From the NCBI RefSeq assembly GCF_900110215.1, contig NZ_FOCX01000028.1, forward strand, positions 1-39,165: 39,165 nucleotides of DNA, in the 5' to 3' direction. A model generated the notes under the pieces. The model did no database searches and had not been told where the DNA came from. It worked only from the letters and a program-made list of their open reading frames with translations. Each line of letters opens with the position of its first letter. Position 1 is the stretch's first letter. Origin of the DNA: Halorientalis persicus (GTDB taxonomy: Archaea > Halobacteriota > Halobacteria > Halobacteriales > Haloarculaceae). Below are positions 5,115 through 39,165 of this stretch, one piece after another. The position numbers and the translations under genes were made by a program.

Positions 5115-5330
5115 ACATCCTCCCCGCCGTGACGGCGGGGCTTCCCCTCCAAGGGGAATCCGGGCTGGCAGGTTTCAGTCCGAGTAGGCCGCGAGCGTCA
5201 TCTGTCCGGGACTCGGACTCGTCTCGCGGTGGACTGTGGCGCTGTCACAGGCGCTCCCATCCCGAGGCGAGTCATCGCGTCCGGGTTCCCAACGGACGCT
5301 CTCTCCCCACGGGTTAGCGCGACTGGCGAT
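5115..5330 (-). ncRNA. Candidate TnpB-associated reRNA (omega RNA) at the element right end
   Basis: In the minus orientation the 3' end of tnpB runs into a hairpin with a 7-bp stem (5142-5158) and then a GC-rich hairpin with an 8-bp stem, CCCCGCCG paired with CGGCGGGG (5122-5140). TnpB proteins are known to use an RNA made from the 3' part of tnpB plus the right end, with the guide taken from the flank. Overlapping 3' transcripts of IS1341-type tnpB genes have been described in Halobacterium. Here the guide would be read from the last bases of xseA. The boundaries given are approximate. Confidence 0.5.
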
Positions 5331-6410
5331 ATTCGCCGCCGCGTTGATATCTGCTTGGAACTCCGAGATGTGGCAGTCGTCATGTGGACACATGAACTCC
5401 GCTTGTTCGGTCCGCCGACCGAGCCGGCTGCAGGCGTGGCACGTCTGTGAGGTGTACGCCGCATTGACGAATTCGACGCGAATGCCTGCCTCGGTCGCCT
5501 TATTTTCGATTCGACCCTGTAGGCGGGCGAATGCCCAGCTGTGGAGGCGGCGGTTCATCCACGTGCCGTAGTCGAGATGCTCGCGGATGTACGACAAGTC
5601 TTCGAGGACGATAACCGGATTCTCGAACTGTCGGGCATATTCGACGGCCTCCCGAGACACCTTCTCGATAATATCGGTGAGGGCGTTCTGGTAGTGGTCG
5701 AATCGCTCGTCAATCCGCCACTCGGCGGCGTCACGCTCTTGCAGTCGCTTGAGCGTCGTGTGCATCTCCTTGCGGAGGCGTCGCGCTCGACTGCCGCTGA
5801 CGAGCATCGGTTTCCGTGGTGTGTCGCGTTTGAGGGCACAGCCCGTAATCAACGCGCTCTCGCCGATGTCGAAGCCGATGTACGTCGGGTCATCCGACTC
5901 AGGCGGTACTTCGACCGAGTATTCGACGGTGACATGCAACTCCCACGACGTTCGGTGGCGCTGTAACCGAAGTTCGCCCGCCGTCGCGTCGCCGTTCAGC
6001 AGGTCGAACCAGAGCGATTCCTGTTCGGGGTTGATCCGAAGCGGAATCCAGAAGTTCGTCCCACGACCGGGCTGTGGAACCTGCCACACGAAGCCGTAGT
6101 CGCGGTTCTCCGAGTGGTCGAACGTGGCCGCCCGATTGACGAGCCGAACCGGATGCTCGTCGTCCAACTCCTCGGCATCGTAGGTGTCGTGGAGTTGCGG
6201 GACGTAGGACTTGAGCGCGTCCTTGGCTTGGTAGGGCAGGTCGTAGGGCGTCACGATGTCGTTGACGGCGGCCATCGTGTCAGCCCCGGCGTCGAATGCG
6301 TCGTGGAGTGCGTCACGGTAGGTGTCCAAGAGTCGCTGGAGGCGTTGCTCTTTGCCCGTAGTGGGCGTGGCGAGCGTGGCCTGTAGCGTCTTCGTCACCG
6401 TCTCGGACAC
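5175..6410 (-). CDS. tnpB: TnpB, RNA-guided endonuclease of IS200/IS605 family
   Basis: 411 residues, starting at GTG 6410. The RuvC-like nuclease residues are all present: GFDIGESAL supplies the first Asp, VIVLEDLSYIR the Glu, and EFQADINAAANI the last Asp. A zinc finger CHACSRLG...CPHDDCH lies between the second and third motifs. The N-terminal half holds the helical/WED part (LQATLATPTTGKEQRLQRLLDTY). The protein is therefore probably active; TnpB cuts DNA guided by the RNA from the element's right end and promotes retention of the element. It has only weak resemblance to the other TnpB in the window and belongs to a different subgroup. Promoter space is shared with the divergent small ORF. 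Confidence 0.95.
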   Translation of the reverse strand: MSETVTKTLQATLATPTTGKEQRLQRLLDTYRDALHDAFDAGADTMAAVNDIVTPYDLPYQAKDALKSYVPQLHDTYDAEELDDEHPVRLVNRAATFDHSENRDYGFVWQVPQPGRGTNFWIPLRINPEQESLWFDLLNGDATAGELRLQRHRTSWELHVTVEYSVEVPPESDDPTYIGFDIGESALITGCALKRDTPRKPMLVSGSRARRLRKEMHTTLKRLQERDAAEWRIDERFDHYQNALTDIIEKVSREAVEYARQFENPVIVLEDLSYIREHLDYGTWMNRRLHSWAFARLQGRIENKATEAGIRVEFVNAAYTSQTCHACSRLGRRTEQAEFMCPHDDCHISEFQADINAAANIASRANPWGESVRWEPGRDDSPRDGSACDSATVHRETSPSPGQMTLAAYSD

Positions 6411-13519: not shown

Positions 13520-14752
13520 CTACCCAGTGGAGTGGATTTCACCATGAATTCCCGCTCGAACCGAATCCGGTACGGATTGAATGCCGTTCGCGGTCATCAT
13601 TCCGGTGTTCAAGCGCACGCCTACGGGTGCGCCTCCTTCGCCCCCATTTTGGTTGCGAAGGAGCCGATACCCGACGTTCTTAGCCGCGTTGTAGTCCGCA
13701 TGGTTCTCGTACCCACAGGATTGACACCGAAAGGTATCCTGCGACGGGCGATTACCCTCGCGCGAGCATCCACACGAGGAACATCGGCGCGAGGTATTCT
13801 TTGGGTTGACCTTTTTGACGGTGATGCCTCGTTCTTCAGCCTTGTAGGAGACGTACTCGTAAAGTCGATTGAACGCCCACTCGTGGAATTCCCTGGCGTT
13901 GGGCAATCGATTTCGGATACCGGTCAAATCCTCGAAGGCGATCACCGTGCAGCCGGTACTGACGGCCTCTTCAATAATGCCATTCGCGACACGATGAAGG
14001 GATTGTTTGAAGCGACCGGTCTCCCGTCGGCCGACTGCTTGGATATTTTCGTGGGCATATCGCGAACCACACTGTTGGAGCGAGTTCCGACGCTGAGCGT
14101 ATTCATTATACCAGTGGTTCAATTCGTTGCCGGACCAGAACACGCCAGTCGAGGTGACGGCGATGTTCTCGACCCCGAGATCAACGCCGAGAACCGTTCC
14201 GTTCTCGAGTTTGTCGGGGACGTCCACGTCCGCCTTTGTTCGGACGTGAAGGTAGAAATCACCACGGCGATGATGAAGGGTGGCGCTAGTCGTCTCCCAA
14301 TCATCGGAGTGCAGGTACTCAGAGTGGGGCGTATCACGGCTTTCGTCGGGCAGAACGTACCCGACGGTGATGCGCCCATCAACAGTACTCAGCGAGGCGT
14401 GATCGTCGTGGAACGTCGCGTTTCGCTGATTATATTCACAAAATGGGGTGGTGAAGGTCGGCAGAGATGCGGATTTACCCTTCGACCACTTGGCGACGAC
14501 GCTTTTGAGCGCGTCAACAGCGCGATCACGAGCGGATTGCACGTGATTACTGTGGAGGCGTGTCCGAGCACGAACGTCATCATAGGTCTCGTCGTGGAGT
14601 ACAGTAGAGCGGGTTTCAGCCCACTCCCCGTCCCACGCCGCGTCGACGACGTAGTTGGCTGCCCACAGGAACTCGTCGATCGTTTCGTGCAGCAGGTCTG
14701 CCTGGCCCTCAGTCACCTCCAGCTTGACCCGGACAGTACGGCAGACCTCCAT
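13520..14752 (-). CDS. tnpB: TnpB, RNA-guided endonuclease of IS200/IS605 family (second copy, different subgroup)
   Basis: 410 residues from ATG at 14752. The N-terminus VRVKLEVTEGQADLLHETI is the usual TnpB start. RuvC residues are intact: GVDLGVENIAV (Asp), VIAFEDLTGIR (Glu) and NHADYNAAKNVG (Asp). The zinc finger CSSCGCSREGNR...CQSCGY is complete with two CxxC pairs. It should be an active guide-RNA nuclease. The gene lies antisense to the transfer operon, so transcripts from upstream genes would read through it in antisense. It has the classic haloarchaeal OrfB zinc-finger form, unlike the first copy, whose finger ends CxxxxC. Confidence 0.95.
   Translation of the reverse strand: MEVCRTVRVKLEVTEGQADLLHETIDEFLWAANYVVDAAWDGEWAETRSTVLHDETYDDVRARTRLHSNHVQSARDRAVDALKSVVAKWSKGKSASLPTFTTPFCEYNQRNATFHDDHASLSTVDGRITVGYVLPDESRDTPHSEYLHSDDWETTSATLHHRRGDFYLHVRTKADVDVPDKLENGTVLGVDLGVENIAVTSTGVFWSGNELNHWYNEYAQRRNSLQQCGSRYAHENIQAVGRRETGRFKQSLHRVANGIIEEAVSTGCTVIAFEDLTGIRNRLPNAREFHEWAFNRLYEYVSYKAEERGITVKKVNPKNTSRRCSSCGCSREGNRPSQDTFRCQSCGYENHADYNAAKNVGYRLLRNQNGGEGGAPVGVRLNTGMMTANGIQSVPDSVRAGIHGEIHSTG
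13564..13632 (-). ncRNA. Candidate reRNA scaffold hairpins inside the tnpB 3' end
   Basis: Two clean hairpins lie in the last 115 bases of tnpB: AATCCG/CGGATT with a 3-base loop (13564-13578), and GCGCAC/GTGCGC enclosing GCCTACGG (13613-13632). TnpB guide RNAs are known to derive from this part of the gene. The structures are visible; their use as a scaffold is inference, and the 3' guide end cannot be placed because the right end of the element is unclear. Confidence 0.35.
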
Positions 14753-28117: not shown

Positions 28118-28570
28118 TCACCGACATTGCCACTCACAGGAATACCCGGGGTCATCGAAATCTTGCCCTGTCTCAAACCTCACAAACAGCCCATAGTCAT
28201 AATCTAAGTGTTGCATATATGCTCGTATCTTCTGGCGGTCACCGCCGCTTGGATTCCCCGATTTCTTCGCTTCGACTACAAGGATATTATGCTCTCCGGA
28301 GCCTCGTTGATGTAGAATAACGTCCGGTACTACTCGTCCCTGGCTTCCGCTTGTTAGCAATTCCTCTGGAACCTCTTTGGTTTCATCACCACCGACACGA
28401 TTGTACTCAACATCTACGTCCCAATGATCCTCAACAGCTTCCTGTAGGTACATTCCGAGCCGATGAGTAATGCTCCTCTCGTTAATATCGAACCTCAGTA
28501 AGTCAGCATCCTCGTCATTGACCTTCTCAAGCGCAACAGAGACCGCCTGCCGTACCTCGTCTTCGTTCAT
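28118..28570 (-). CDS. PD-(D/E)xK nuclease-like protein
   Basis: 150 residues from ATG at 28570. VVPDVILHQRGSGEHNILVVEAKKSG gives the PD-(D/E)xK signature: P82-D83, then E100-A-K102 at the end of the next strand. DRQKIRAYMQHLDYDYGLFVRF is the usual helix and strand after the core, with YGLFV marking the fold. A helix with Glu (about 44) precedes it, as in many restriction-type nucleases. It is the last gene of the minus-strand run from KwaA and overlaps the EVE-like gene by ATGA, which suggests that EVE reader and nuclease work together. The substrate is unknown; modified DNA is a reasonable inference. Confidence 0.75.
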   Translation of the reverse strand: MNEDEVRQAVSVALEKVNDEDADLLRFDINERSITHRLGMYLQEAVEDHWDVDVEYNRVGGDETKEVPEELLTSGSQGRVVPDVILHQRGSGEHNILVVEAKKSGNPSGGDRQKIRAYMQHLDYDYGLFVRFETGQDFDDPGYSCEWQCR

Positions 28571-29043
28571 ACCTGAGTCGTGAGATCGTTGACTTTGTCG
28601 AGGTCTGAAGGTGCGACCTGGGTAAAATTGAACCCCTGCTGCCCACAATAACTCATCTTCTCGGAGAACTCTCCTTGGTCAACGAGCCGCTGAATGTCTT
28701 GGTAGTTGATTTTGGGTTTAATCTCTATCGACGTCTCAAACTCCAAGAGCGCGCCTTTTGAGTCGATTTGTTTGTTCTCGATCGGCAGAATATGGCTGAG
28801 ACAGGTCGGGTGATCGTTTACGGAGGATGAACAATACAGAAGCGCGGTATCTCCCCCGGTCGCAGTTTCCCATGCATCGCGACGTTCGTATCCCTCACGT
28901 TTCCAGTAGGGATTTGCGTTGAAATATCGGTGATGTCGAAGCGGCTCATCAACGAATGTCGGGCCCATAGCACCGCGGATATACTCTGGTTTCGCATCCT
29001 CGCTGATTTCGCGGCCATTCGTTTGGATGAGGAAGACGCTCAT
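28567..29043 (-). CDS. EVE (PUA-like) domain protein, candidate modified-base reader
   Basis: 158 residues from ATG at 29043 (MSVFLIQTNGREISEDAK); an upstream in-frame extension is not supported because it crosses the zinc-ribbon gene. Elements of the EVE/PUA pocket are seen: RYFNANPYWKREGYERRDAWE, then GDTALLYCSSSVNDHP, CLSHILPIE, and later KMSYCGQQGFNFTQVA. EVE domains bind modified bases such as 5-methyl or hydroxymethyl cytosine and are often part of restriction or defence systems. The stop overlaps the nuclease start by four bases. The assignment rests on motif order, so PUA-like is safer than EVE in the strict sense. Confidence 0.6.
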   Translation of the reverse strand: MSVFLIQTNGREISEDAKPEYIRGAMGPTFVDEPLRHHRYFNANPYWKREGYERRDAWETATGGDTALLYCSSSVNDHPTCLSHILPIENKQIDSKGALLEFETSIEIKPKINYQDIQRLVDQGEFSEKMSYCGQQGFNFTQVAPSDLDKVNDLTTQV

Positions 29044-29111
29044 ACTACCGGGAACTGGAGGATGGACAATAAATTGGGTTGACCAGCAGATTCCACCGTG
29101 TTCGCTGTTGC

Positions 29112-29228
29112 CTATGCGCGGAAGTTCTCGCCGCAGTTTCGGCACGTCGCCCAGCCTCCTTGTTTCACCTTCTGCTTTTCACCGCACTCTGGACACTCCC
29201 GCCACACGGAGCGATTTCGATGGGACAT
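29112..29228 (-). CDS. Small zinc-ribbon protein (38 residues)
   Basis: ATG at 29228 opens MSHRNRSVWRECPECGEKQK and ends CRNCGENFRA at a TAG (29112-29114). CPECG and CRNCG, 18 residues apart, form a complete four-Cys zinc ribbon, the kind of small CPxCG protein that haloarchaea encode in numbers. It lies between kwaB and the EVE-like gene on the same strand, with gaps of 46 and 68 bases. It may be a regulatory or structural part of the system, or an unrelated passenger. Confidence 0.7.
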   Translation of the reverse strand: MSHRNRSVWRECPECGEKQKVKQGGWATCRNCGENFRA

Positions 29229-29274
29229 AGTTCACCTCCGCTCTAATGACGTTATATCGTCCGCCCACTCTCGA

Positions 29275-30246
29275 TTAGAGGCGCTGTCCGCTATCAATTT
29301 CCCACTGTTCACCCATAATGTCGTCCTCAGCATACTTCGCCGCTAGTAACTTGATCAATTTCCAAGTATGCTGGTACTCGTCTACGCCCAATTCGATTTG
29401 GCCGTCCCGACGAGCGTAATCGAGCGAGAAACGGGTATCCAAATTGTATTTTTGAATCATCGCCTCGATTTTGTCTGGGGTGGCCTCTTCGTGAATATCG
29501 TTATCATAGATTTCGTACATCCCTCGAAGCATATTGATATGGCTCAGCATCCATGCGGTCGTGGTCTCACGGTCAGCAAAGGTAATCCCGGCATCCTCGA
29601 ACGCCTCGATGGCTTCCTCCGCTCGCTTTCTGTACTCCTCACGCATGTCGAACATACTCTCGAACGACTTTGGGGTAATAATGAACACCCACCCATCGTA
29701 GCAGATGGCGTTGAGGTTCGGGCGAATGACCAATAAATCCCCCTGAAAGCGCTCGTACTCCTCGTTTTGATACCAGAGTGTGAGTTCGTTTGTCGTGTCG
29801 ACCAATTTCGCGTTACTGTAGTTTTGAACCCCGATCAGAACCTTCCCGTCCGGTTCACTGATACGGATGAGTTGAAAATTCGGCTCAGGATCTTCCGAGT
29901 ACGTCGTCGTCCCGTCATTATCTCTGGAGTTCAGAATCTCAAATAGCTCGGAGTCGGGCAGGTTCTCTATTCTAACACACTGTATGACCGATTCCTCGCT
30001 AATCGTGTTTGCAACATCCAGGGGCCGTGCTCGGGTTCGCCCGTCACGAAGGTTGTTAATCTGTTCGGTGAGAGCGTCTGAGACGGTTTTTGCGATTTCC
30101 TGTTGAACAAGATGTCCAAGCTGAAGCTTCCCTACCTCTGGGGAGTCCCCCTGCTTCCTAACGAGCAAGAACTCAGCTTCCGTCCGCCCCTCCGCAAACT
30201 CCCGGGCTTCCTTGAGTTTTTCAGCCGCGTTTAGTTTCCCAGACAT
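29275..30246 (-). CDS. kwaB: Kiwa defence protein KwaB (DUF4868)
   Basis: 323 residues from ATG at 30246, one base after the KwaA stop. The protein fits DUF4868: a central beta-rich core around SDELFEILNSRD and IRISEPDGKVLIGVQNYSNA, then LLVIRPNLNAICYDGWVFIITPKSFESMFD, then the helical region FADRETTTAWMLSHINMLRGMYEI. Length is close to that of bacterial KwaB. KwaB is the cytoplasmic partner of KwaA; in published studies the two form a membrane-associated complex that stops phage after adsorption or injection. Base composition is AT-richer than in the transfer cluster, in line with separate acquisition. KwaA directly upstream supports the assignment. Confidence 0.82.
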   Translation of the reverse strand: MSGKLNAAEKLKEAREFAEGRTEAEFLLVRKQGDSPEVGKLQLGHLVQQEIAKTVSDALTEQINNLRDGRTRARPLDVANTISEESVIQCVRIENLPDSELFEILNSRDNDGTTTYSEDPEPNFQLIRISEPDGKVLIGVQNYSNAKLVDTTNELTLWYQNEEYERFQGDLLVIRPNLNAICYDGWVFIITPKSFESMFDMREEYRKRAEEAIEAFEDAGITFADRETTTAWMLSHINMLRGMYEIYDNDIHEEATPDKIEAMIQKYNLDTRFSLDYARRDGQIELGVDEYQHTWKLIKLLAAKYAEDDIMGEQWEIDSGQRL

Positions 30247-30247
30247 A

Positions 30248-30865
30248 TTATGGTGCGAGGTATGTGGTTCGACCGAGGGAGACGACCTCGATTTTCTTTC
30301 GGGGATTATCTGCCGTTTTTGTCTCCGGTAGTATCATTTTTTCCTCAAGTGAGGACTTACTGATTACCAATATCACCTGCTCGTCACTCGTCACCTCGTA
30401 CACCTGATAGCCGCGTATCCCCAACATCGGGTTGACATGCAGTATTTCCGAATTGATTTGGAGCACTCCCAAGATGACGAAAAACACTAGGAAGATACCA
30501 AGGTCAAGCAGAGTCGTGAAATTCAGACCCGCGAAGACAAAAACATAGACCAGTAGGTACGTCGAAAGCAGTTCACTCCGCTTCTGATACTTGTCGACTG
30601 GCTCTTGAGTAGTAGCACGGCTGGAATGAACCGTGACCATTCGGTACAAAAGGGCGGTGAACAATACACAGAGCACCAAAATTCCGATGGACAGATACGA
30701 GATGTATAGTCGGAAATCGATGTAGGGGAGGTCGATAAGGGGGATTTTGTAACCCGCGATCAAGAGTGGGGGAATCTTCCCGAACTTCAACGCCATAATG
30801 AAGAATAGCGGTACGTAAGAGCTGAGGAAGAGAACGATCTTGACCGGTGCCCTGAACTTTCGCAT
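30248..30865 (-). CDS. kwaA: Kiwa defence protein KwaA, membrane component
   Basis: 205 residues from ATG at 30865. Four membrane helices are evident: IVLFLSSYVPLFFIMAL (about 10-26), LYISYLSIGILVLCVLFTALLY (about 53-74), LLSTYLLVYVFVFAGLNF (about 98-115) and LDLGIFLVFFVILGVLQI (about 120-137). A cytoplasmic domain with INSEILHVNPMLGIRGYQVYEV and VILVISKSS follows. The four-TM plus soluble tail design and the immediate downstream KwaB define the Kiwa pair. Published work on bacterial Kiwa describes KwaA as the membrane sensor of phage infection. In this host the threat would be an archaeal virus. The low GC content suggests horizontal acquisition. Confidence 0.78.
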   Translation of the reverse strand: MRKFRAPVKIVLFLSSYVPLFFIMALKFGKIPPLLIAGYKIPLIDLPYIDFRLYISYLSIGILVLCVLFTALLYRMVTVHSSRATTQEPVDKYQKRSELLSTYLLVYVFVFAGLNFTTLLDLGIFLVFFVILGVLQINSEILHVNPMLGIRGYQVYEVTSDEQVILVISKSSLEEKMILPETKTADNPRKKIEVVSLGRTTYLAP

Positions 30866-30930
30866 AGTCGGCGCTACTCTTTTGTAATTGTCAGATGGCT
30901 ACTGACCTAATCTTGATGGTGGCTTGGTTG

Positions 30931-31641
30931 TTAGTCGGGTCTCGGAAAATCCTGGCTGCTTCCATCATACCTCATCTGTTCCAGGTCATCCTCAGACAGC
31001 TGTTTCACTATCTCAAGAAACCGCTTCCCACGAATTTCCATCCACGTCGTTTCGAGGGCTCGACGTTCCGTTTCCGTAGCTGGAATCCAGGTACAATCAC
31101 CAATAAACTGCTTACTCCCCTTCGAGGCCAACGCGAATGCTACCATTTGCTCTGGAATCTGGGTAAGAGCATCCGCCACTGACAGGAGATACGGCTCACT
31201 CAAGACGACAAACAGCAAGTCGTACTCTTGACCCAGTACCTTCCGGAACTCCTGAGGAATGTCCTTCTCCCGTCCGACCATCTGAATCGTCTCGTCGTTT
31301 GTTAGGTTGTCAATATCGTATCCTGCTCGCTCGGCCCGTGTTCGAACGGATTCGATATCGCTGAAACCGCACTCATAGGACGGGATCTCTGTCTCGCTAT
31401 GTAGCAACCCGAATCCTGCAGAAATGATATACCAGTCGACGTCGGCACTACTGCGGAGATGGTCGACCGCGGTCTTGATATGCTGGTGTTCATTGCCGGT
31501 ATACATCTCTGCCGCAGTCGTAGCGGATTCCGGATGTGCTTGCAGTAATTTCTCGCGCGAATGCTCGTCCACACCCTCACAGTCAAGAACAGGGTCGTAT
31601 CGTTTGTCTTTGGAACAGGGTGAGAGTACGAGAACGTTCAT
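30931..31641 (-). CDS. DUF6884-like protein
   Basis: 236 residues from ATG at 31641 (MNVLVLSPCSKDKRYDP). The start LSPCSKDK, the segment TAAEMYTGNEHQHI and DWYIISAGFGLLHSETEIPSYE reproduce the DUF6884 pattern (CSxxK...LY.s......wyilSa..GLl.....i.pY). The later part (QEYDLLFVVLSEPYLLSV) is consistent. The biochemical role of the family is not established to my knowledge; it is often found in defence or DNA-modification gene neighbourhoods. It is divergent from the GIY-YIG gene, with 73 bases and an inverted repeat between them. KwaA follows 65 bases downstream on the same strand, so both could be co-transcribed. Confidence 0.65.
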   Translation of the reverse strand: MNVLVLSPCSKDKRYDPVLDCEGVDEHSREKLLQAHPESATTAAEMYTGNEHQHIKTAVDHLRSSADVDWYIISAGFGLLHSETEIPSYECGFSDIESVRTRAERAGYDIDNLTNDETIQMVGREKDIPQEFRKVLGQEYDLLFVVLSEPYLLSVADALTQIPEQMVAFALASKGSKQFIGDCTWIPATETERRALETTWMEIRGKRFLEIVKQLSEDDLEQMRYDGSSQDFPRPD

Positions 31642-31651
31642 CCGGTATCCT

Positions 31652-31673
31652 ACTCGGTGTCGTCTCACCGAGT
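31652..31673. promoter_or_regulatory. 8-bp inverted repeat in divergent promoter region
   Basis: ACTCGGTG (31652-31659) and CACCGAGT (31666-31673) with a 6-base spacer, centred in the 73 bases between the divergent DUF6884-like and GIY-YIG-like genes. Position and symmetry fit an operator for a dimeric regulator acting on both genes. Confidence 0.5.
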
Positions 31674-31714
31674 GGTGAAACTCTTTGTGCGTGAATGAGA
31701 GCAATCCTGTAAGA

Positions 31715-32443
31715 ATGACTCGTCGAGACGATCTCGACCGTTTCTATAGCTTGCTTGACGATCTAGAGCAACGAGTCGGCGGAACTCGAAAACTCAAGAA
31801 TTGCACTGGGTACATGGACTGGCCCGATCGGGGTGTCTACTTTTTCCTTGAACCGGGGGAAACACGTGCATCAACCGACCGAGCACGTGTTACTCGCGTC
31901 GGGACGCATGCTGTGTCTGAAGGAAGCAGCACCTCTCTCTGGGACAGACTGAAACAACACTACGGAACAGGCAGCGGGAGTTCCAACCATCCTCACGGAG
32001 GTGCTCACCGCGGCTCTGTGTATCGCAAGCGCGTCGGGGAGGCGATTATCGAGAAACACGAACTCCAAGACGACTACCCCGACTGGGACAAACGCTGGTC
32101 GAGCATTAACCGCGAGCGGTCAGTGGTCCGTGACGAGGAGTACATCCTCGAACGACGTGTGAGCACCTACATCCGAGAACAGCCGTTCCTCTGGGTGAAC
32201 CTCGACGACAAACCGAGTGCCGACAGTAACCGAGCAACCCTTGAACAGAACGCTATCGCTCTCCTCAGCAATTTCGGTAAGCGTCCAATTGACCAACGAG
32301 GAGATGAGTGGCTCGGTCGGTACAGTCAGAGTCGAGAGATTCGGGAATCTGGTCTTTGGAACGTGAATCACGTTGAGGAGAACTATGAGGAGGAGTTCTT
32401 GGAGCTATTGGAACAGGCGCTCAACAACACAACGCCACTATGA
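31715..32443 (+). CDS. GIY-YIG nuclease-like protein
   Basis: 242 residues from ATG at 31715 (MTRRDDLDRFYSLLDDL); a TTG at 31685 would add ten residues. RGVYFFLEPGE followed by RVTRVGTHAV is the GIY...YIG pair in variant form. SLWDRLKQHYG places the catalytic Arg (WDRL) after the second strand, and a Glu occurs in GEAIIEKHE. An insertion rich in His/Gly (NHPHGGAHRGSVYRKR) lies in between. Such proteins cleave DNA, and in defence islands may act with a modification reader. It is divergent from the DUF6884-like gene, suggesting joint control. Confidence 0.65.
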   Translation: MTRRDDLDRFYSLLDDLEQRVGGTRKLKNCTGYMDWPDRGVYFFLEPGETRASTDRARVTRVGTHAVSEGSSTSLWDRLKQHYGTGSGSSNHPHGGAHRGSVYRKRVGEAIIEKHELQDDYPDWDKRWSSINRERSVVRDEEYILERRVSTYIREQPFLWVNLDDKPSADSNRATLEQNAIALLSNFGKRPIDQRGDEWLGRYSQSREIRESGLWNVNHVEENYEEEFLELLEQALNNTTPL

Positions 32444-32698: not shown

Positions 32699-35600
32699 AT
32701 GACAACTCGATATGCGGATACTACTCTGGATATCGATGCTGATCGCTGGTACTACACGAAATTCAGTGTCAAGCGGTATCGCCAGGCAGTGGAGTGGGAG
32801 AGTGTCAAAGAAACCTTCGACCGGACTGCAGAGGCTGTCCGGGCCCTTCTGGAGGCGTACCAATCGGAAGGCGTGTTTGGGGATGCAGAGCTCACAGCAC
32901 TCAAGTCGACGACTCTGACCTCCTCAGCTATCGGTGGGGAGGCAACTCAGGCTCAGTACTTCGAAACTGATGGCTCCGAAGAGGAGCTGGAACGCGCAGC
33001 AAACCTGGTATCGGACAATACTGGAATTGTTGGTGGCATCCCTTACGATGCTTCAGTCAAGGGGACGTCTGCAGAGACGCTACTCGATATTTTTGAGATA
33101 CTTCTCGATGAAGAGGCAGACCCAGATACAGTCGATTCGGCAGCGAAGCGCCTCCTCGATCTCGATCTAGATAACGTCGGCGGGGCAACGCTCACGGCCC
33201 TCCTCTGTCTGCTCCGTCCGACGCGATTCCCAATCGTCAACCAGCAGACTGAGAAGGTGTTCGATGCCTGTTTCGACATCCGCCTCTCGGCCAGTACCGA
33301 AGAATATCTCGACAGTACCGCGCAGTTTCACACGATTCGCGAAGAGTTCGGATTCGATTCCCATCTCCGACAGCTGGACTATTTCTGTTACTGGGTACGA
33401 GCGGAGGTCAGTCCAGAGAATTCACCGCTCCCAGAGAACTTCGACGACCGGACAGTCTGGCAGATCAATGCAGGGCGGTCCAATGTTGAGAAACCCGAAC
33501 CGGAGCGGCTCTGGCCCGTATGGCAGGAACTGGGAATCTGCTCTATCGGCTGGGATACAGGCCCACTCGACGAATTCTCGGGAGCAGAACTCGAAACTGC
33601 CGCCGAGCAGTGGGATGGAGACGAAGTCGGTGACTACCTCCGGCGGTTCGGCAAGGAGATGCAGCCCGGACAGCTAGTCATCGCGAAGGACGGGAGCGAC
33701 ATTCTCGGTATCGGTGTGACCAAACAGGGTGGATATCACTACTGCCCGGAGGTCATCGACGAGCGGGTCGAGGGGCCGGATACCGGACATGTTCACGCTT
33801 GGCCGGTGGAATGGGGGGTGGTTCCCGAATCAGAGTTCGATCGAGACGTCAGTAATTGGGGACTCGAGACCGGACTTTCTGCACGAAAGACGCTCATCGG
33901 GACCGAGGCATTCGAGGGCATCCGCTGGCAGTTAGCTGAGCGTGACCCGGACCTGATTCCGGCATTAGGCGCCCTCGAGGAGACGGTAACCGACCCACCA
34001 GTAGCAACCCTACCAGACGACTGCCAGGCTACAGACCAGTCCCCAAGTGGTTGCTTTATTCTCCAAACAGGGGATGACAAGTGGGAAGACGACCTGACGT
34101 CGCAGTATCATTTCAAGCTGGGCAATCCCGGGACCCGACTCCTCTGGGAAGCCGAGACGGCTCGTGTGGTCTATCTCGAAGACGGCGATCTTTATGCGAC
34201 GGCGCGAGTCACAGACATCGAGCGCGAGGAACGCGACGATGAGATCCACTGCTTTGCGTCTATCGAGGATTATGAGGAGATTCATCCAGTCGCTGTGAAC
34301 GACATCCGGGGCGAACTCGAAACGTCGTTTTCCTTACAACACTCAATCATTGAGATCTCGGACGCCGATTTTCAGACCATCGTTACCCGAGGGACCAAGA
34401 CCCATTATTTCTGGATCAATTCCGCGTCCGAGGACTGGTATCATGAAGGCGGTGAGGCGTTCTACACGAGGAATACGAACGCCGGAACGCAACGCCGGAA
34501 CCAGTCGGTCTACGAACGGGCTCGACCAGGCGACGAGATTCTGATTTATCGGAATGCTCCCGCTCAGGCCATCGTCGGTCGAGGTCACGTCACTGAAGGA
34601 CTGCACGAGGAGGTGCCCAACGATGGAGACGAGCCCGTCGAAGGCATCACTCTCGCCTGGGATGAGACATTAGACGGGGTCGACTGGAGTCGCCTGCAGA
34701 CCGTGCCGGAGCTTGAGGATAGCCCGGTACTGGAGTCAGACAATAGTTACGTCATCACTGAACTCAGCGAACAGGAGTACAACACCATCCTGGAGCTGGC
34801 TCGAGGCCGTGAACGAAAATACTACTGGGCAACTGCCAATCAAGATCTCTGGGACCTCGACGGCGTGGAACCTGGAGAAGAGATATTCTATACAGCTTAC
34901 AACGAGGCCGGACGAAAGCGACGCCTCTTCGAATCATATGAAACCGCCCGGTCGGGGGACCGGGTGTTGTTCTATCACTCCTCGCCGGTACAGCAGATCG
35001 TCGGTGAGGGTGTCGTGGTCGAGGGGCTCCATGAGGAAGAACCGGAATTCCGCGACGAGCCAGTCGAGGGGCTCACGCTCCGATTCGAGAACTCACTGGC
35101 ACCTATCTCCTGGGAAACCATAACCGACATCGAAGAGTTAGAAGACTCTCGGGTACTCCGGAACAACGCGCGAGGGGCCTTGTTCCCGCTGTCGGAAACG
35201 CAATTCAAGGCGATTCAGTCGACTGGCGATATCGACACGCAAATCGAAGGGCTTCGAGACCGCCTCTCGCCCCCAACGATGGCGATTAAGTTCCCGGAGG
35301 GGCTCTACTTCGAATCTAAGGCAGAACTCAAGCGCCAAATCGAAGCCTCATTGAATTCCGGGCAGCACATCATCTTCACCGGGCCGCCCGGGACGGGGAA
35401 GACCAAGCTGGCCAAACACATCTGCAAGCAGGTTGTCGACAAACACGGCGATATCGTCGATGGCCACCGCTTCACCACTGCCACCGCCGAATGGACGACC
35501 TTTGATACGATTGGTGGTTATGTCCCGAACCGATCGGCTGAAGGTGACGAACTCGTTTTCCAGCCACGTATCTTTCTGGACTGCTTCCGGAAGGACGGCG

Positions 35601-36367
35601 CCATCCGCAACGAGTGGCTTGTCATCGACGAGATCAACCGCTCAGATATCGACAAAGCCTTCGGTCAGCTGTTTTCGGTCCTCTCAGGTGATTCGGTCCA
35701 GCTCCCCTACGAGCGAGAGTCGCCTATCGAGATCGCCTCGCTTGATAGTAGTGACGCAGAAAATGACGCCCGTCTGGAATCGATCATCACTGATCCGGAT
35801 ACGTTCCCGGTGACCCCGTCGTGGCGGCTACTTGCAACGATGAACACCTACGACAAGACCTCGCTCTATGAACTCTCCTATGCGTTTATGCGTCGCTTCA
35901 ACTTCATACACGTCGGCGTTCCCCCACTGGCCGAGGATGGGGAAGTTCGCGTCTCGCTTCTTGATCCCGAGTCCGACGAAAACTATGCAGCGGGATGGAT
36001 TGCCGAGGACGAGACTCTCCGGGAACCACTGGAAGCGAGTTACAAACAGCTAGCCGTGGTCTGGTACAAGGTTAATAACCACCAGACAATCGGTCCGTCA
36101 ATCGTCCGGGATATCCTCGGATATCTCGCAGCGGCCGGTCCGGCAACGCTTGAGGATCCGGGGCCAGCTCTGACGGACGCGGTCATCGCGCTGGTCTTCC
36201 CACAGCTCGAAGGGATGGCACCTCAGGAGCAACGAGGTCTTGTCGACGCGCTCACGGACGAAGACGTTCCGACCGAAGAAGGCCCAGTCGACTTAACCCT
36301 CGAGGGCGAGCGACTCGAACGGAAGGCAGAGGACTTCTTCGACCTGCCGCCACGGAGCGATGAGTAA
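32699..36367 (+). CDS. mcrB: McrB-type AAA+ restriction protein with multiple PUA/EVE-like reader domains
   Basis: 1222 residues from ATG at 32699. Residues 1-240 are helical, with a helix-hairpin-helix-like LDLDNVGGATLTALLCLLRP. Residues about 250-415 form a PUA-like domain starting VWQINAGRSN. About 450-560 is another (GCFILQTGDDKWEDD...YHFKLGN). Two clearly duplicated EVE-type domains follow at about 567-700 and 705-865: both contain ARxGD...Y, QxIVGxG, VxEGLHEE and EPVEG. The AAA+ domain has Walker A GPPGTGKT (895-902), Walker B LVIDEINRSD (D977, E978) and the McrB signature MNTYDKTS...FMRRFNF. Type IV McrB proteins translocate DNA bearing modified bases to activate McrC. Four reader-like domains in one chain is unusually rich. 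The gene overlaps mcrC by eight bases. Confidence 0.88.
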   Translation: MTTRYADTTLDIDADRWYYTKFSVKRYRQAVEWESVKETFDRTAEAVRALLEAYQSEGVFGDAELTALKSTTLTSSAIGGEATQAQYFETDGSEEELERAANLVSDNTGIVGGIPYDASVKGTSAETLLDIFEILLDEEADPDTVDSAAKRLLDLDLDNVGGATLTALLCLLRPTRFPIVNQQTEKVFDACFDIRLSASTEEYLDSTAQFHTIREEFGFDSHLRQLDYFCYWVRAEVSPENSPLPENFDDRTVWQINAGRSNVEKPEPERLWPVWQELGICSIGWDTGPLDEFSGAELETAAEQWDGDEVGDYLRRFGKEMQPGQLVIAKDGSDILGIGVTKQGGYHYCPEVIDERVEGPDTGHVHAWPVEWGVVPESEFDRDVSNWGLETGLSARKTLIGTEAFEGIRWQLAERDPDLIPALGALEETVTDPPVATLPDDCQATDQSPSGCFILQTGDDKWEDDLTSQYHFKLGNPGTRLLWEAETARVVYLEDGDLYATARVTDIEREERDDEIHCFASIEDYEEIHPVAVNDIRGELETSFSLQHSIIEISDADFQTIVTRGTKTHYFWINSASEDWYHEGGEAFYTRNTNAGTQRRNQSVYERARPGDEILIYRNAPAQAIVGRGHVTEGLHEEVPNDGDEPVEGITLAWDETLDGVDWSRLQTVPELEDSPVLESDNSYVITELSEQEYNTILELARGRERKYYWATANQDLWDLDGVEPGEEIFYTAYNEAGRKRRLFESYETARSGDRVLFYHSSPVQQIVGEGVVVEGLHEEEPEFRDEPVEGLTLRFENSLAPISWETITDIEELEDSRVLRNNARGALFPLSETQFKAIQSTGDIDTQIEGLRDRLSPPTMAIKFPEGLYFESKAELKRQIEASLNSGQHIIFTGPPGTGKTKLAKHICKQVVDKHGDIVDGHRFTTATAEWTTFDTIGGYVPNRSAEGDELVFQPRIFLDCFRKDGAIRNEWLVIDEINRSDIDKAFGQLFSVLSGDSVQLPYERESPIEIASLDSSDAENDARLESIITDPDTFPVTPSWRLLATMNTYDKTSLYELSYAFMRRFNFIHVGVPPLAEDGEVRVSLLDPESDENYAAGWIAEDETLREPLEASYKQLAVVWYKVNNHQTIGPSIVRDILGYLAAAGPATLEDPGPALTDAVIALVFPQLEGMAPQEQRGLVDALTDEDVPTEEGPVDLTLEGERLERKAEDFFDLPPRSDE

Positions 36368-37688
36368 GCTCAGTCGAGCGGCCTTGACAGATGCCGTCCA
36401 AGAGGAATTGATCACCTATCTCCGGAACGGGACCATCAACGAGCGATCAGTCACCCGGGCGCTCGATATCTCGGGGTTAGGGATCGAGAACCTCAATCGG
36501 CTCAAACGCATCCACTTCTGCCTTAGCGACGATATCGTCGAGTTCGTTGAAGCCCTCCAGGGACGGCTCCGCCGAGTCAAGACCGCCAATCAGCGCGAGC
36601 GAGAGGTCACGCAGGGTGAGGTGCGCGGCGGCATCGACTGGCAGGCGACGACCAGGCTTCGGTATTCCGAGGCTGCGGGCGACCGAACTCAATTTGCCTG
36701 CAAGACACCGTATACCGAGTACGATATCCCGGAAAATCTCGTTCTGAAGAAACTACTCTGGGTTATTCACTCGACAGTCCAGGATGACCTGTCGAATATC
36801 GACTATGAGTGGCGGACGAATGCTTGGCCGACCGAGCGCATCACCAAATTCGATCGAATCTACGCCAGAAATGTCCATCTCAACCGCATCCGTGACGGGG
36901 ACAATATCGAGATCAACCGACGGATGCTCAATACGGCTCGGACAGCCCGCCAGTCACTATATACCGACGCCTACACCTACTACGATCGATACCGCCGGTT
37001 GTTGGCCGGGGCCTATGATGACGATGATATCTCCGAGTTGCTATCGGACACTCTCGTCGTCCCGGAGCGCTTGCCGCGGCTGTTCGAACTGTTCTGCATT
37101 TTCCGACTTCTCAGAGGGTTCAGCGACGAGGGGTTCCGACTGCATCCGATTGAGTCTGGGTCAAACCCGCTCGCGACACTAGAGGGCGACCAGCACACGG
37201 TCGATGTGTACCACGACCGAAGTGGGGAACTCTCCTTCCACGTTCCACTCTCTGAACTGGATGGAGTCGAGGAGGACTACGTCGAACGTATCCGGCACAT
37301 CCAGCGCCGTCATGAAGAACTGGTAGATGCTTTTCTTGGGGACGATACGCGGCATTCGCTGTTCAGTGGACGCCCCGATATCGTTTTCGAGGTGTATGAT
37401 TCCCCTCGGCGAGAGATACCGGTATCGGTCATCTTAGCCGAAATAAAATATAGTGACAGTCCACAGACGTTCAAGAGCGGTCTAGAGGAACTGCTGGAGT
37501 ACATCGAGTTCGCCCAGCAGGATGGTTATCTTACCGACCAGGATATCGAGATTCGGGGGCTACTCATCACCGACGGGGTTGAGTCGAACATGGTTGCCCC
37601 GCTCGATGGGCACATCGCGCATCTCTCGGCTGCTGATCTAACAGCTGAGAGATTCTCAACGCACTGGATACCAGAGAGGCTTCGATAG
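36360..37688 (+). CDS. mcrC: McrC-type PD-(D/E)xK nuclease subunit
   Basis: 442 residues from ATG at 36360, overlapping mcrB. The N-terminal two thirds are helical and basic (FVEALQGRLRRVKTANQRER, LNRIRDGDNIEINRRM), the usual McrC region that contacts McrB. The nuclease core is GRPDIVFEVYDSP (Asp at about 340), then VILAEIKYSDSP (E360-I-K362), a canonical D...ExK site, followed by LEELLEYIEFA. McrC cuts DNA when the McrB ring stalls. It differs from E. coli McrC in sequence but has the same architecture. Overlap and order with mcrB make the assignment strong. Confidence 0.85.
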   Translation: MSKLSRAALTDAVQEELITYLRNGTINERSVTRALDISGLGIENLNRLKRIHFCLSDDIVEFVEALQGRLRRVKTANQREREVTQGEVRGGIDWQATTRLRYSEAAGDRTQFACKTPYTEYDIPENLVLKKLLWVIHSTVQDDLSNIDYEWRTNAWPTERITKFDRIYARNVHLNRIRDGDNIEINRRMLNTARTARQSLYTDAYTYYDRYRRLLAGAYDDDDISELLSDTLVVPERLPRLFELFCIFRLLRGFSDEGFRLHPIESGSNPLATLEGDQHTVDVYHDRSGELSFHVPLSELDGVEEDYVERIRHIQRRHEELVDAFLGDDTRHSLFSGRPDIVFEVYDSPRREIPVSVILAEIKYSDSPQTFKSGLEELLEYIEFAQQDGYLTDQDIEIRGLLITDGVESNMVAPLDGHIAHLSAADLTAERFSTHWIPERLR

Positions 37689-37930: not shown

Positions 37931-38761
37931 TCACTGTTTCACAGCTCTCTTGATGTTATAGACGACACACATCAGCGCGATTTCTCGGAACTCACGGAAC
38001 CAGGAACGCGCTCGCACGGCGAAGCCGAGCGAGCGCTTCACAGCCGAGTTCACGGTCTTGGTCATCGAGCGCTGATTGTAGCGCTGTTCGTCGATTCTGG
38101 CGTTGTGCGCGTGATCATAGGGTGCGAAGACGCGATGTTTGATGAGCGGGCGAATCCCGAGGTCACGAAGGGATTCGCGGAGCGATTGCTTGTCGTATCC
38201 CTTGTCGGCGGCAAGAGACCGCAGATCGCCCGCGTTCCGGCGGGCGATCTGCGCACAGAGGTCGGCATCACTTCCTTCACGGGTGGTCGAGCAATGCACG
38301 TCAAGGACGGCTTGCGTGTCTGTATCGACGAGTTTCGTGACCTTCAGCTTCTGCACGCGGTAGCTTATTCGCTGGCAGTAGTGGCGGCTCGCTGCTGAGC
38401 GTTCGTAGAATGTCGCGTCGATCGCGCCATGTTTCGAGGGGTCGTGCAACTGCCCCGACTGGCGCAGCAGCACTCGGCAGACGCTCATACTGATCCGGTC
38501 GAACGCTTTACACAACGTGGACGGGGAGGAGAGATCGGCCGCCTCAAGGCCGATCTCCCCGGTTATTTGTGGCATCTCCTTCAGCAGATCAATCGTCATT
38601 CGGTAGGACGTGTCGAGGTAAATCGGGAGACAATGGAGGGAAACGAAGGCATAGTCGGCGAATCCGCCGCCACCTTCCGGGGCGGCGGATTCGTCTCCAT
38701 CGCCAGTAACTCTTTGAGAAATCGGGACGATTTCGCTAGTGAAGCGGGAGATTTGGGTCAT
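37931..38761 (-). CDS. IS5-family transposase (copy 1)
   Basis: 276 residues from ATG at 38761 (MTQISRFTSEIVPISQ). DDE transposase features: HGAIDATFYER with the first Asp, KVTKLVDTD, LAADKGYDKQSLRESL with the second Asp, then the Y-(2)-R-(3)-D/E like tail RYNQRSMTKTVNSAVKRSLG. The C-terminus REIALMCVVYNIKRA is typical of haloarchaeal IS5 members. The frame is intact, so it may be active. A conserved 12-bp hairpin lies within codons for about residues 25-35 (see separate entry). It is related to, but clearly distinct from, copy 2 on the other strand. Confidence 0.92.
   Translation of the reverse strand: MTQISRFTSEIVPISQRVTGDGDESAAPEGGGGFADYAFVSLHCLPIYLDTSYRMTIDLLKEMPQITGEIGLEAADLSSPSTLCKAFDRISMSVCRVLLRQSGQLHDPSKHGAIDATFYERSAASRHYCQRISYRVQKLKVTKLVDTDTQAVLDVHCSTTREGSDADLCAQIARRNAGDLRSLAADKGYDKQSLRESLRDLGIRPLIKHRVFAPYDHAHNARIDEQRYNQRSMTKTVNSAVKRSLGFAVRARSWFREFREIALMCVVYNIKRAVKQ
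38660..38692 (-). repeat. 12-bp hairpin inside IS5 transposase copy 1
   Basis: In coding direction GAATCCGCCGCC, loop CCGGAAGGT, GGCGGCGGATTC: a perfect 12-bp stem with a 9-base loop, encoding ESAAPEGGGGF. The same structure with two compensating base-pair changes is in copy 2. Confidence 0.85.
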
Positions 38762-38894: not shown

Positions 38895-38909
38895 TGAGTG
38901 GTAGTTTGG

Positions 38910-39165
38910 ATGAACATCACCACCCGCTTCACCGAGGAGATGGTGTCGCTGGCAAAAAGTTATTGCGACAATCCCGATGAAGCTGCCGCCCCGGAAGGCG
39001 GCGGCAGCTTCGCAGAGTACGCGATGATTTCCCTCCACGGGCTACGGATTTTCCTCGATGAGACCTACAAGATGACCATCGACCGGCTGGAGGTGATGCG
39101 ACCAATTCTGGAGATTATTGGACTTGAGCCCGACGATCTCCCACATCCATCGACGTTGAATAAGT
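38910..39165 (+). CDS. IS5-family transposase (copy 2), N-terminal part (cut by window edge)
   Basis: An open frame from ATG at 38910 (MNITTRFTEEMVSLAKSYCD) runs off the window. It matches copy 1 throughout: RFT.E.V...., AAPEGGG.FA.YA, ISLHGLRIFLDETYKMTID and DDLPHPSTL. About half of the residues are identical, so it is a related but separate element, in opposite orientation. The catalytic core lies outside the window. The hairpin at 38979-39011 is at the same codons as in copy 1. Confidence 0.9.
   Translation, partial: MNITTRFTEEMVSLAKSYCDNPDEAAAPEGGGSFAEYAMISLHGLRIFLDETYKMTIDRLEVMRPILEIIGLEPDDLPHPSTLNK
38979..39011 (+). repeat. 12-bp hairpin inside IS5 transposase copy 2
   Basis: GAAGCTGCCGCC, loop CCGGAAGGC, GGCGGCAGCTTC: a perfect 12-bp stem with a 9-base loop, encoding EAAAPEGGGSF. 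Compared with copy 1, two stem pairs change (T-A to G-C and C-G to T-A) on both sides, so pairing is kept. Confidence 0.85.

Follow-up and report, generated by a model that had tools for sequence, protein, structure and literature searches.

How does an McrB protein come to carry four reader-like domains in front of its motor, and what would it recognize with them? In McrBC systems, N-terminal readers bind modified DNA, a hexameric GTPase translocates and McrC cuts. At the locus of the haloarchaeon Halorientalis persicus studied here, the original prediction described a helical N-terminal domain, two different PUA-like domains and a "clearly duplicated" pair of EVE domains before the AAA+ motor, a number and mix of readers that was considered high. 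The whole stretch of DNA analysed, called the window, comprises 39,165 nucleotides of contig NZ_FOCX01000028.1.

Gene Pair, Motor and Nuclease

The predicted McrBC assignment of positions 32699-37688 is borne out by two intact open reading frames, the first of which encodes an McrB-type AAA+ motor. The start of mcrC overlaps the end of mcrB by a few bases.

32699..36367 (+): mcrB, 1222 aa; helical N domain, P1, P2, EVE-1, EVE-2 and McrB-type AAA+ GTPase (open reading frame; domain architecture by HMMs)
35255..36346 (+): McrB AAA+ GTPase, residues 853-1216 (motifs; best solved relatives)
36360..37688 (+): mcrC, 442 aa, PD-(D/E)xK nuclease subunit (alignment; position beside the motor gene)

The motor is an McrB-type AAA+ GTPase with Walker A (GPPGTGKT, residues 895-902), Walker B (WLVIDEINR, residues 973-981) and the NxxD signature (MNTYD, residues 1048-1052). 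The arginine-rich FMRRF motif and the C-terminal part are also intact, and the top PDB matches are the McrB proteins of Thermococcus gammatolerans and E. coli. Membership in the CoCoNuT group was considered and rejected, as MNTYD is an NxxD motif, whereas CoCoNuT proteins have NxD according to the motif definition in PMC11090510.

Judged by its position and its invariant PD-(D/E)xK residues, the second protein is McrC. Residues D340, E361 and K363 do not vary in the alignment of 20 relatives, and an McrC gene adjoins McrB in all complete relatives examined, including L094, a locus with a reversed EVE order (see below). The Pfam families of McrC match weakly (N-terminal DUF2357, E=0.03; McrBC, PF10117, E=0.022), each in 2 of the 20 members, the McrC of the window not being among them. 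A comparison of this McrC with solved McrC structures gave no match.

Mobility and Genomic Neighbourhood

The DNA match between the window and L033, a locus in genome G271, begins 62 bases before the McrB start and ends exactly at the McrC stop codon. This extent indicates that the gene pair moves as a cassette. Relative to this 89%-identical homologue, every McrB domain is under purifying selection and none is decaying: dN/dS is 0.09 for N, 0.19 for P1, 0.05 for P2, 0.11 for E1, 0.08 for E2 and 0.08 for the motor. The value for McrC is 0.10. In Salinigranum salinum, only the first 75 codons of a window-type McrB are present (L002:8001-8315, +), 88% identical and followed by divergence; this fragment is either a remnant or a joining point.

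A defence island, at window positions 28118-32443, adjoins the McrBC genes:

28118-28648 (-): PD-Lambda-3_A-like
29275-30246 (-): KwaB of Kiwa
30248-30865 (-): KwaA of Kiwa
30931-31704 (-): DUF6884/DpdC-like gene, divergent from the PDC-M57B gene
31685-32443 (+): PDC-M57B gene

Further reading frames, judged by eye, resemble those of mobile elements:

5175-6410 (-): TnpB-like, with a zinc-ribbon C-terminus
13520-14752 (-): TnpB-like, with a zinc-ribbon C-terminus
37931-38761 (-): transposase-like, downstream of mcrC
38898-39165 (+): transposase-like, downstream of mcrC

The two transposase-like frames have similar starts. The two TnpB-like frames are surrounded by VirB4/HerA-like genes, which suggests that a mobile element carries the island.

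Identity of the Reader Domains

Five modules precede the motor:

32729..33400 (+): N, residues 11-234, helical N-terminal module (shared by 17 aligned members; no Pfam family)
33443..33985 (+): P1, putative EVE/PUA-like domain, residues 249-429 (profile-profile match to EVE)
34034..34396 (+): P2, putative EVE/PUA-like domain, residues 446-566 (profile-profile match to EVE)
34400..34798 (+): E1, residues 568-700, EVE domain whose type is native to motor clade 2 (profile match E=1.8e-58; tree clade)
34814..35224 (+): E2, residues 706-842, EVE domain whose type is native to motor clade 1 (Pfam EVE; tree clade)

The predicted helical N-terminal module is shared by 17 aligned McrB proteins or parts of genes and matches no family in Pfam. 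E1 and E2 are certainly EVE domains. The Pfam EVE family (PF01878) matches the window McrB in two stretches (E=1.2e-15, 58.2 bits against a cut-off of 23), and E1 falls in the same profile family. The joint profile of E1, E2 and their relatives matches the solved EVE proteins 1zce, 2gbs, 2ar1 and 2eve.

Neither P1 nor P2 matches a family in Pfam. In profile-profile comparison with hhalign, the P2 profile (12 members) reaches EVE at 93.5% (P=2e-7) over nearly its full length, and the P1 profile (23 members) at 73.5% (P=3e-5). The controls remain at or below 0.4%; they comprise reversed EVE (0.3% with either profile), the N domain, and a comparison of P1 with P2. P1 first reached EVE domains by iterated HMM search, and because such a search risks profile drift, the link was tested again, this time leaving EVE sequences out of the P1 profile and adding reversed controls. 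P1 gave no match against solved EVE and YTH domains, and neither P1 nor P2 has a detectable sequence match to the YTH-like reader of the T. gammatolerans McrB (6p0g). AlphaFold models predicted from single sequences, with no alignment, have a mean pLDDT of 43 for P1 and 49 for P2; a Foldseek search with this low-confidence P2 model returned chance-like matches only. Relatives for the P1 and P2 alignments were also looked for among viral contigs, where none was found.

These profile-profile matches and their controls place all four domains before the motor in the EVE/PUA superfamily, and the predicted pair of different PUA-like domains holds to this extent. For P2, membership appears well supported by profile comparison; for P1 it seems moderately supported, the weakest case of the four.

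Standalone proteins related to P2 and weakly EVE-like, 149-200 aa as called, occur at L089:4585-5031 (-), L090:3807-4406 (-) and L091:3824-4270 (+), and are possible single-domain readers. A 149-aa standalone relative of P2 matches Pfam EVE at E=0.011, below the cut-off.

Origin of the Tandem EVE Domains

E1 and E2 are 40-42% identical, and their similarity is far above chance, as had been noticed: the local score is 271, compared to a mean of 31 (SD 4.8, maximum 48) for shuffled sequences. The view that the pair arose by local duplication is not supported. In trees of EVE domains from at least 28 McrB proteins, E1 and E2 fall in two separate clades. The E2-type clade unites the tandem E2 domains with the single EVE domains of McrB proteins that have the same kind of motor as the window (clade 1). 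The E1-type clade unites the tandem E1 domains with the single EVE domains of McrB proteins with a second kind of motor (clade 2), the two kinds being about 42% identical. According to these trees, the EVE domain next to the motor is always E2-type in motor clade 1 (17 of 17 proteins) and always E1-type in motor clade 2 (10 of 10). The AU test rejects a tree that unites tandem E1 and E2 in one clade (p=0.0001), and with it a simple local tandem duplication. Both types also occur alone, beside different motors. The tandem of the window thus joins two EVE lineages.

The same two types are also joined in the opposite order. In genome G155, an McrB with a clade 2 motor and an adjoining McrC (L094:4374-7808, -) carries an E2-type EVE upstream of an E1-type EVE, the mirror image of the order in the window. 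A sister relationship of these two EVE domains is rejected (p=2e-6). A second reversed tandem was sought in further relatives and none was found, so that the reversed order is known from G155 alone. The motor tree, a quick tree with SH-aLRT support only, needs two origins of the tandem state.

Given the two EVE clades, the rejected one-clade tree and the reversed order in L094, the tandem looks like the product of recombinational stacking, in which the motor would keep its own EVE domain and gain a foreign one upstream. A different history, which concerns the origin only, is possible though doubtful: E1 and E2 would have duplicated in place in the motor lineage of the window, and E1, together with P2, would later have been exported to the second motor. 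Joining the E1-type with the tandem E2 domains costs only 2.9 log units (p=0.108), and the E1-type singles nest among the tandem E1 domains with moderate support. However, in the best trees E1 branches outside the entire E2-type clade, a clade made up of tandem E1 and E2 alone is rejected, and the reversed tandem on the second motor requires lateral joining under either history. The case warns that similar neighbouring domains need not be tandem duplicates.

Mosaic Relatives and Distribution

Different parts of the window McrB have their closest relatives in different proteins. Apart from the full-length homologues (L033, L034), the best matches by domain identity for N and P1 are two N-P1-McrB proteins, L050 and L051 (44-46% and 47-50%). 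For P2 they are N-P1-P2-EVE-McrB proteins that have the other motor (L047-L049, 57-68%). For E1 (57-62%), E2 (49-59%) and the motor (76-80%), the closest are the EVE-EVE-McrB proteins L035-L039, whose N-termini differ from that of the window and include, for example, MrcB_N.

From these sequence relationships, haloarchaeal McrB proteins are seen as mosaics in which reader modules are swapped and stacked. Between zero and four readers are detectable by HMM in the haloarchaeal set, and some stretches of these proteins with no detected domain hold further EVE-like segments. The stack of the window is therefore at the upper end, yet ordinary for its lineage. The number and mix of readers are thus not exceptional, as comparable stacks occur in other haloarchaeal McrB proteins and a tandem EVE-McrB has been published (PcdA, PMC10602043). 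The E1/E2-type EVE family is present in 34 of the 391 sampled genomes of the class, the tandem in nine open reading frames.

Split and broken genes were also encountered. In genome G317, McrB is divided into an N-P1-P2-EVE protein of 750 aa and an overlapping motor frame of 365 aa (L059:8636-11771, +); a second motor and McrC lie on the other strand of this locus. In genome G117, an EVE-McrB gene (L058:4626-7274, +) is broken by a TAA within the EVE domain.

Cleft Residues of E1 and E2

Conservation of at least 75% in both EVE types is seen at 30 columns, of which 25 hold the same residue and five differ. Both domains keep the conserved tyrosine of the nucleic-acid cleft (Y617 in E1, Y759 in E2), which aligns with Y57/Y187 of PcdA and is invariant in 36 of 36 EVE domains. 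Y57/Y187 and K114/K253 of PcdA were chosen as part of its nucleic-acid interface (PMC10602043). At the position of K114/K253, E1 has S683 and E2 has R825, so that the basic partner is kept in E2. The substrate loop around this position reads N-x-[YF] in 17 of 18 E1-type domains and [AG]-[RQ]-G in 18 of 18 E2-type domains.

The origin of E1 and E2 in two lineages, together with this loop difference, suggests that the two probably differ in the modification or context they read, and it is reasonable to infer different ligands. That this McrB recognizes more than one modification, as had been proposed, appears plausible because both domains keep the cleft tyrosine, differ class-specifically at the loop and, like all other domains, are under purifying selection.

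Comparison with Known Systems

EVE-McrB fusions are known, and Bell et al. (2020, PMC7641849; 2024, PMC11090510) note extra domains as frequent; the literature states "one or more" reader domains per McrB. These type IV systems share with the McrBC pair described here an EVE domain before the McrB GTPase, an McrC partner and the NxxD signature of the classical branches, whereas the McrB of the window has four EVE-superfamily domains and a two-lineage tandem EVE. No description of such a four-domain stack or two-lineage tandem was found in the passages of the two papers that were consulted. The window system is a new arrangement of a known type of machine, not a new machine. As far as the open-access literature was searched, the new elements are the four-domain EVE-superfamily stack and the joining of two EVE lineages, once in each order.

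PcdA of Staphylococcus (PMC10602043) shares the tandem EVE followed by an McrB-family AAA+ domain, with aligned cleft tyrosines. Unlike the window system, it has a degraded motor, no McrC and a role in cell division. Its EVE domains are about 25% identical to E1 and E2, and their long branches give no placement relative to E1 and E2 in the tree. Membership of the window protein in PcdA was rejected on its intact motor motifs and its McrC. PcdA is nevertheless a precedent for a co-opted tandem-EVE McrB, and the window protein could similarly have left restriction behind. We consider this highly improbable, since Walker A and B, FMRRF and the C-terminal part are intact, an McrC with intact catalytic residues adjoins, the genes sit among defence genes, and the distribution is patchy, with the tandem form in 9 of 391 genomes of the class. 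A protein with a tandem EVE and a degenerate motor is encoded on a contig deposited as Staphylococcus phage (L098:3507-4877, +); it is probably PcdA, as its residues agree at the four published PcdA positions.

The McrB of T. gammatolerans (PDB 6ut3/6ut5) is archaeal, is the best solved match of the motor and has an N-terminal reader of the PUA superfamily (YTH-like, 6p0g). It differs from the stack of the window in having a single reader, which senses 6mA. The EVE-HNH endonuclease VcaM4I (PMC7897488) is likewise a restriction enzyme whose EVE domain senses modified cytosine by base flipping, but has one EVE, an HNH nuclease and no dependence on NTP. ScoMcrA (PMC3009677) is a precedent for one type IV enzyme acting on both phosphorothioate and methylated DNA; unlike the window system, it is an HNH enzyme with other reader domains and no McrB motor.

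Proposed Function

The mcrB-mcrC pair probably encodes a type IV McrBC system for modification-dependent restriction, with four EVE-superfamily readers, not copies of one another, stacked on the motor and loading it by OR logic. By analogy with solved McrBC complexes, the McrB motor would form GTP-driven hexamers, and McrC would be recruited as the cutting nuclease. Recognition would fall to the four domains before the motor, with DNA as the presumed target. Known EVE and YTH readers of restriction enzymes take up flipped 5mC/5hmC or 6mA in a pocket (PMC7897488), and each reader here is likewise predicted to test a modified base by flipping it out. The chain probably arose by module stacking: E2 belongs with the motor lineage of this McrB, and E1 and P2 are of the kind carried on another motor lineage. 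Engagement of any one reader is most likely enough to load the motor; that each reader adds a substrate is the simplest reading, and a coincidence requirement is possible.

Alternatively, only one domain, such as the motor-proximal E2, may read a modification, the others being non-specific DNA-binding, spacing or oligomer-shaping modules. The constant company of E2 and its motor clade, the free exchange of upstream domains among relatives and the many relatives with a single EVE would fit this arrangement. It is nonetheless unlikely: purifying selection is comparable on all domains, E1 keeps the cleft tyrosine and has a conserved loop of its own, and PcdA, though a cell division protein, needs both of its tandem EVE domains for function (PMC10602043).

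Beyond the proposed OR-loaded system, the two EVE types may have come together on at least two occasions, in opposite orders, each time leaving the native EVE beside the motor and adding the foreign one upstream. This would imply selection for reading two distinct modifications in one complex, a proximal EVE mechanically coupled to the motor, freely exchangeable distal readers and possibly an AND gate. We regard this extended scenario as rather improbable.

Biological Significance

If the readers are non-redundant, the relatives would provide natural swap experiments, in which one motor carries different stacks of readers and both EVE types occur in either order on two motors. Two questions would then become testable with this family: whether an McrBC combines several readers of base modifications by OR or by AND logic, and which reader must sit beside the motor. 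Modified-DNA sensing would also be extended in haloarchaea; to our knowledge, the DNA modifications of their viruses have been little explored with this class of enzyme.
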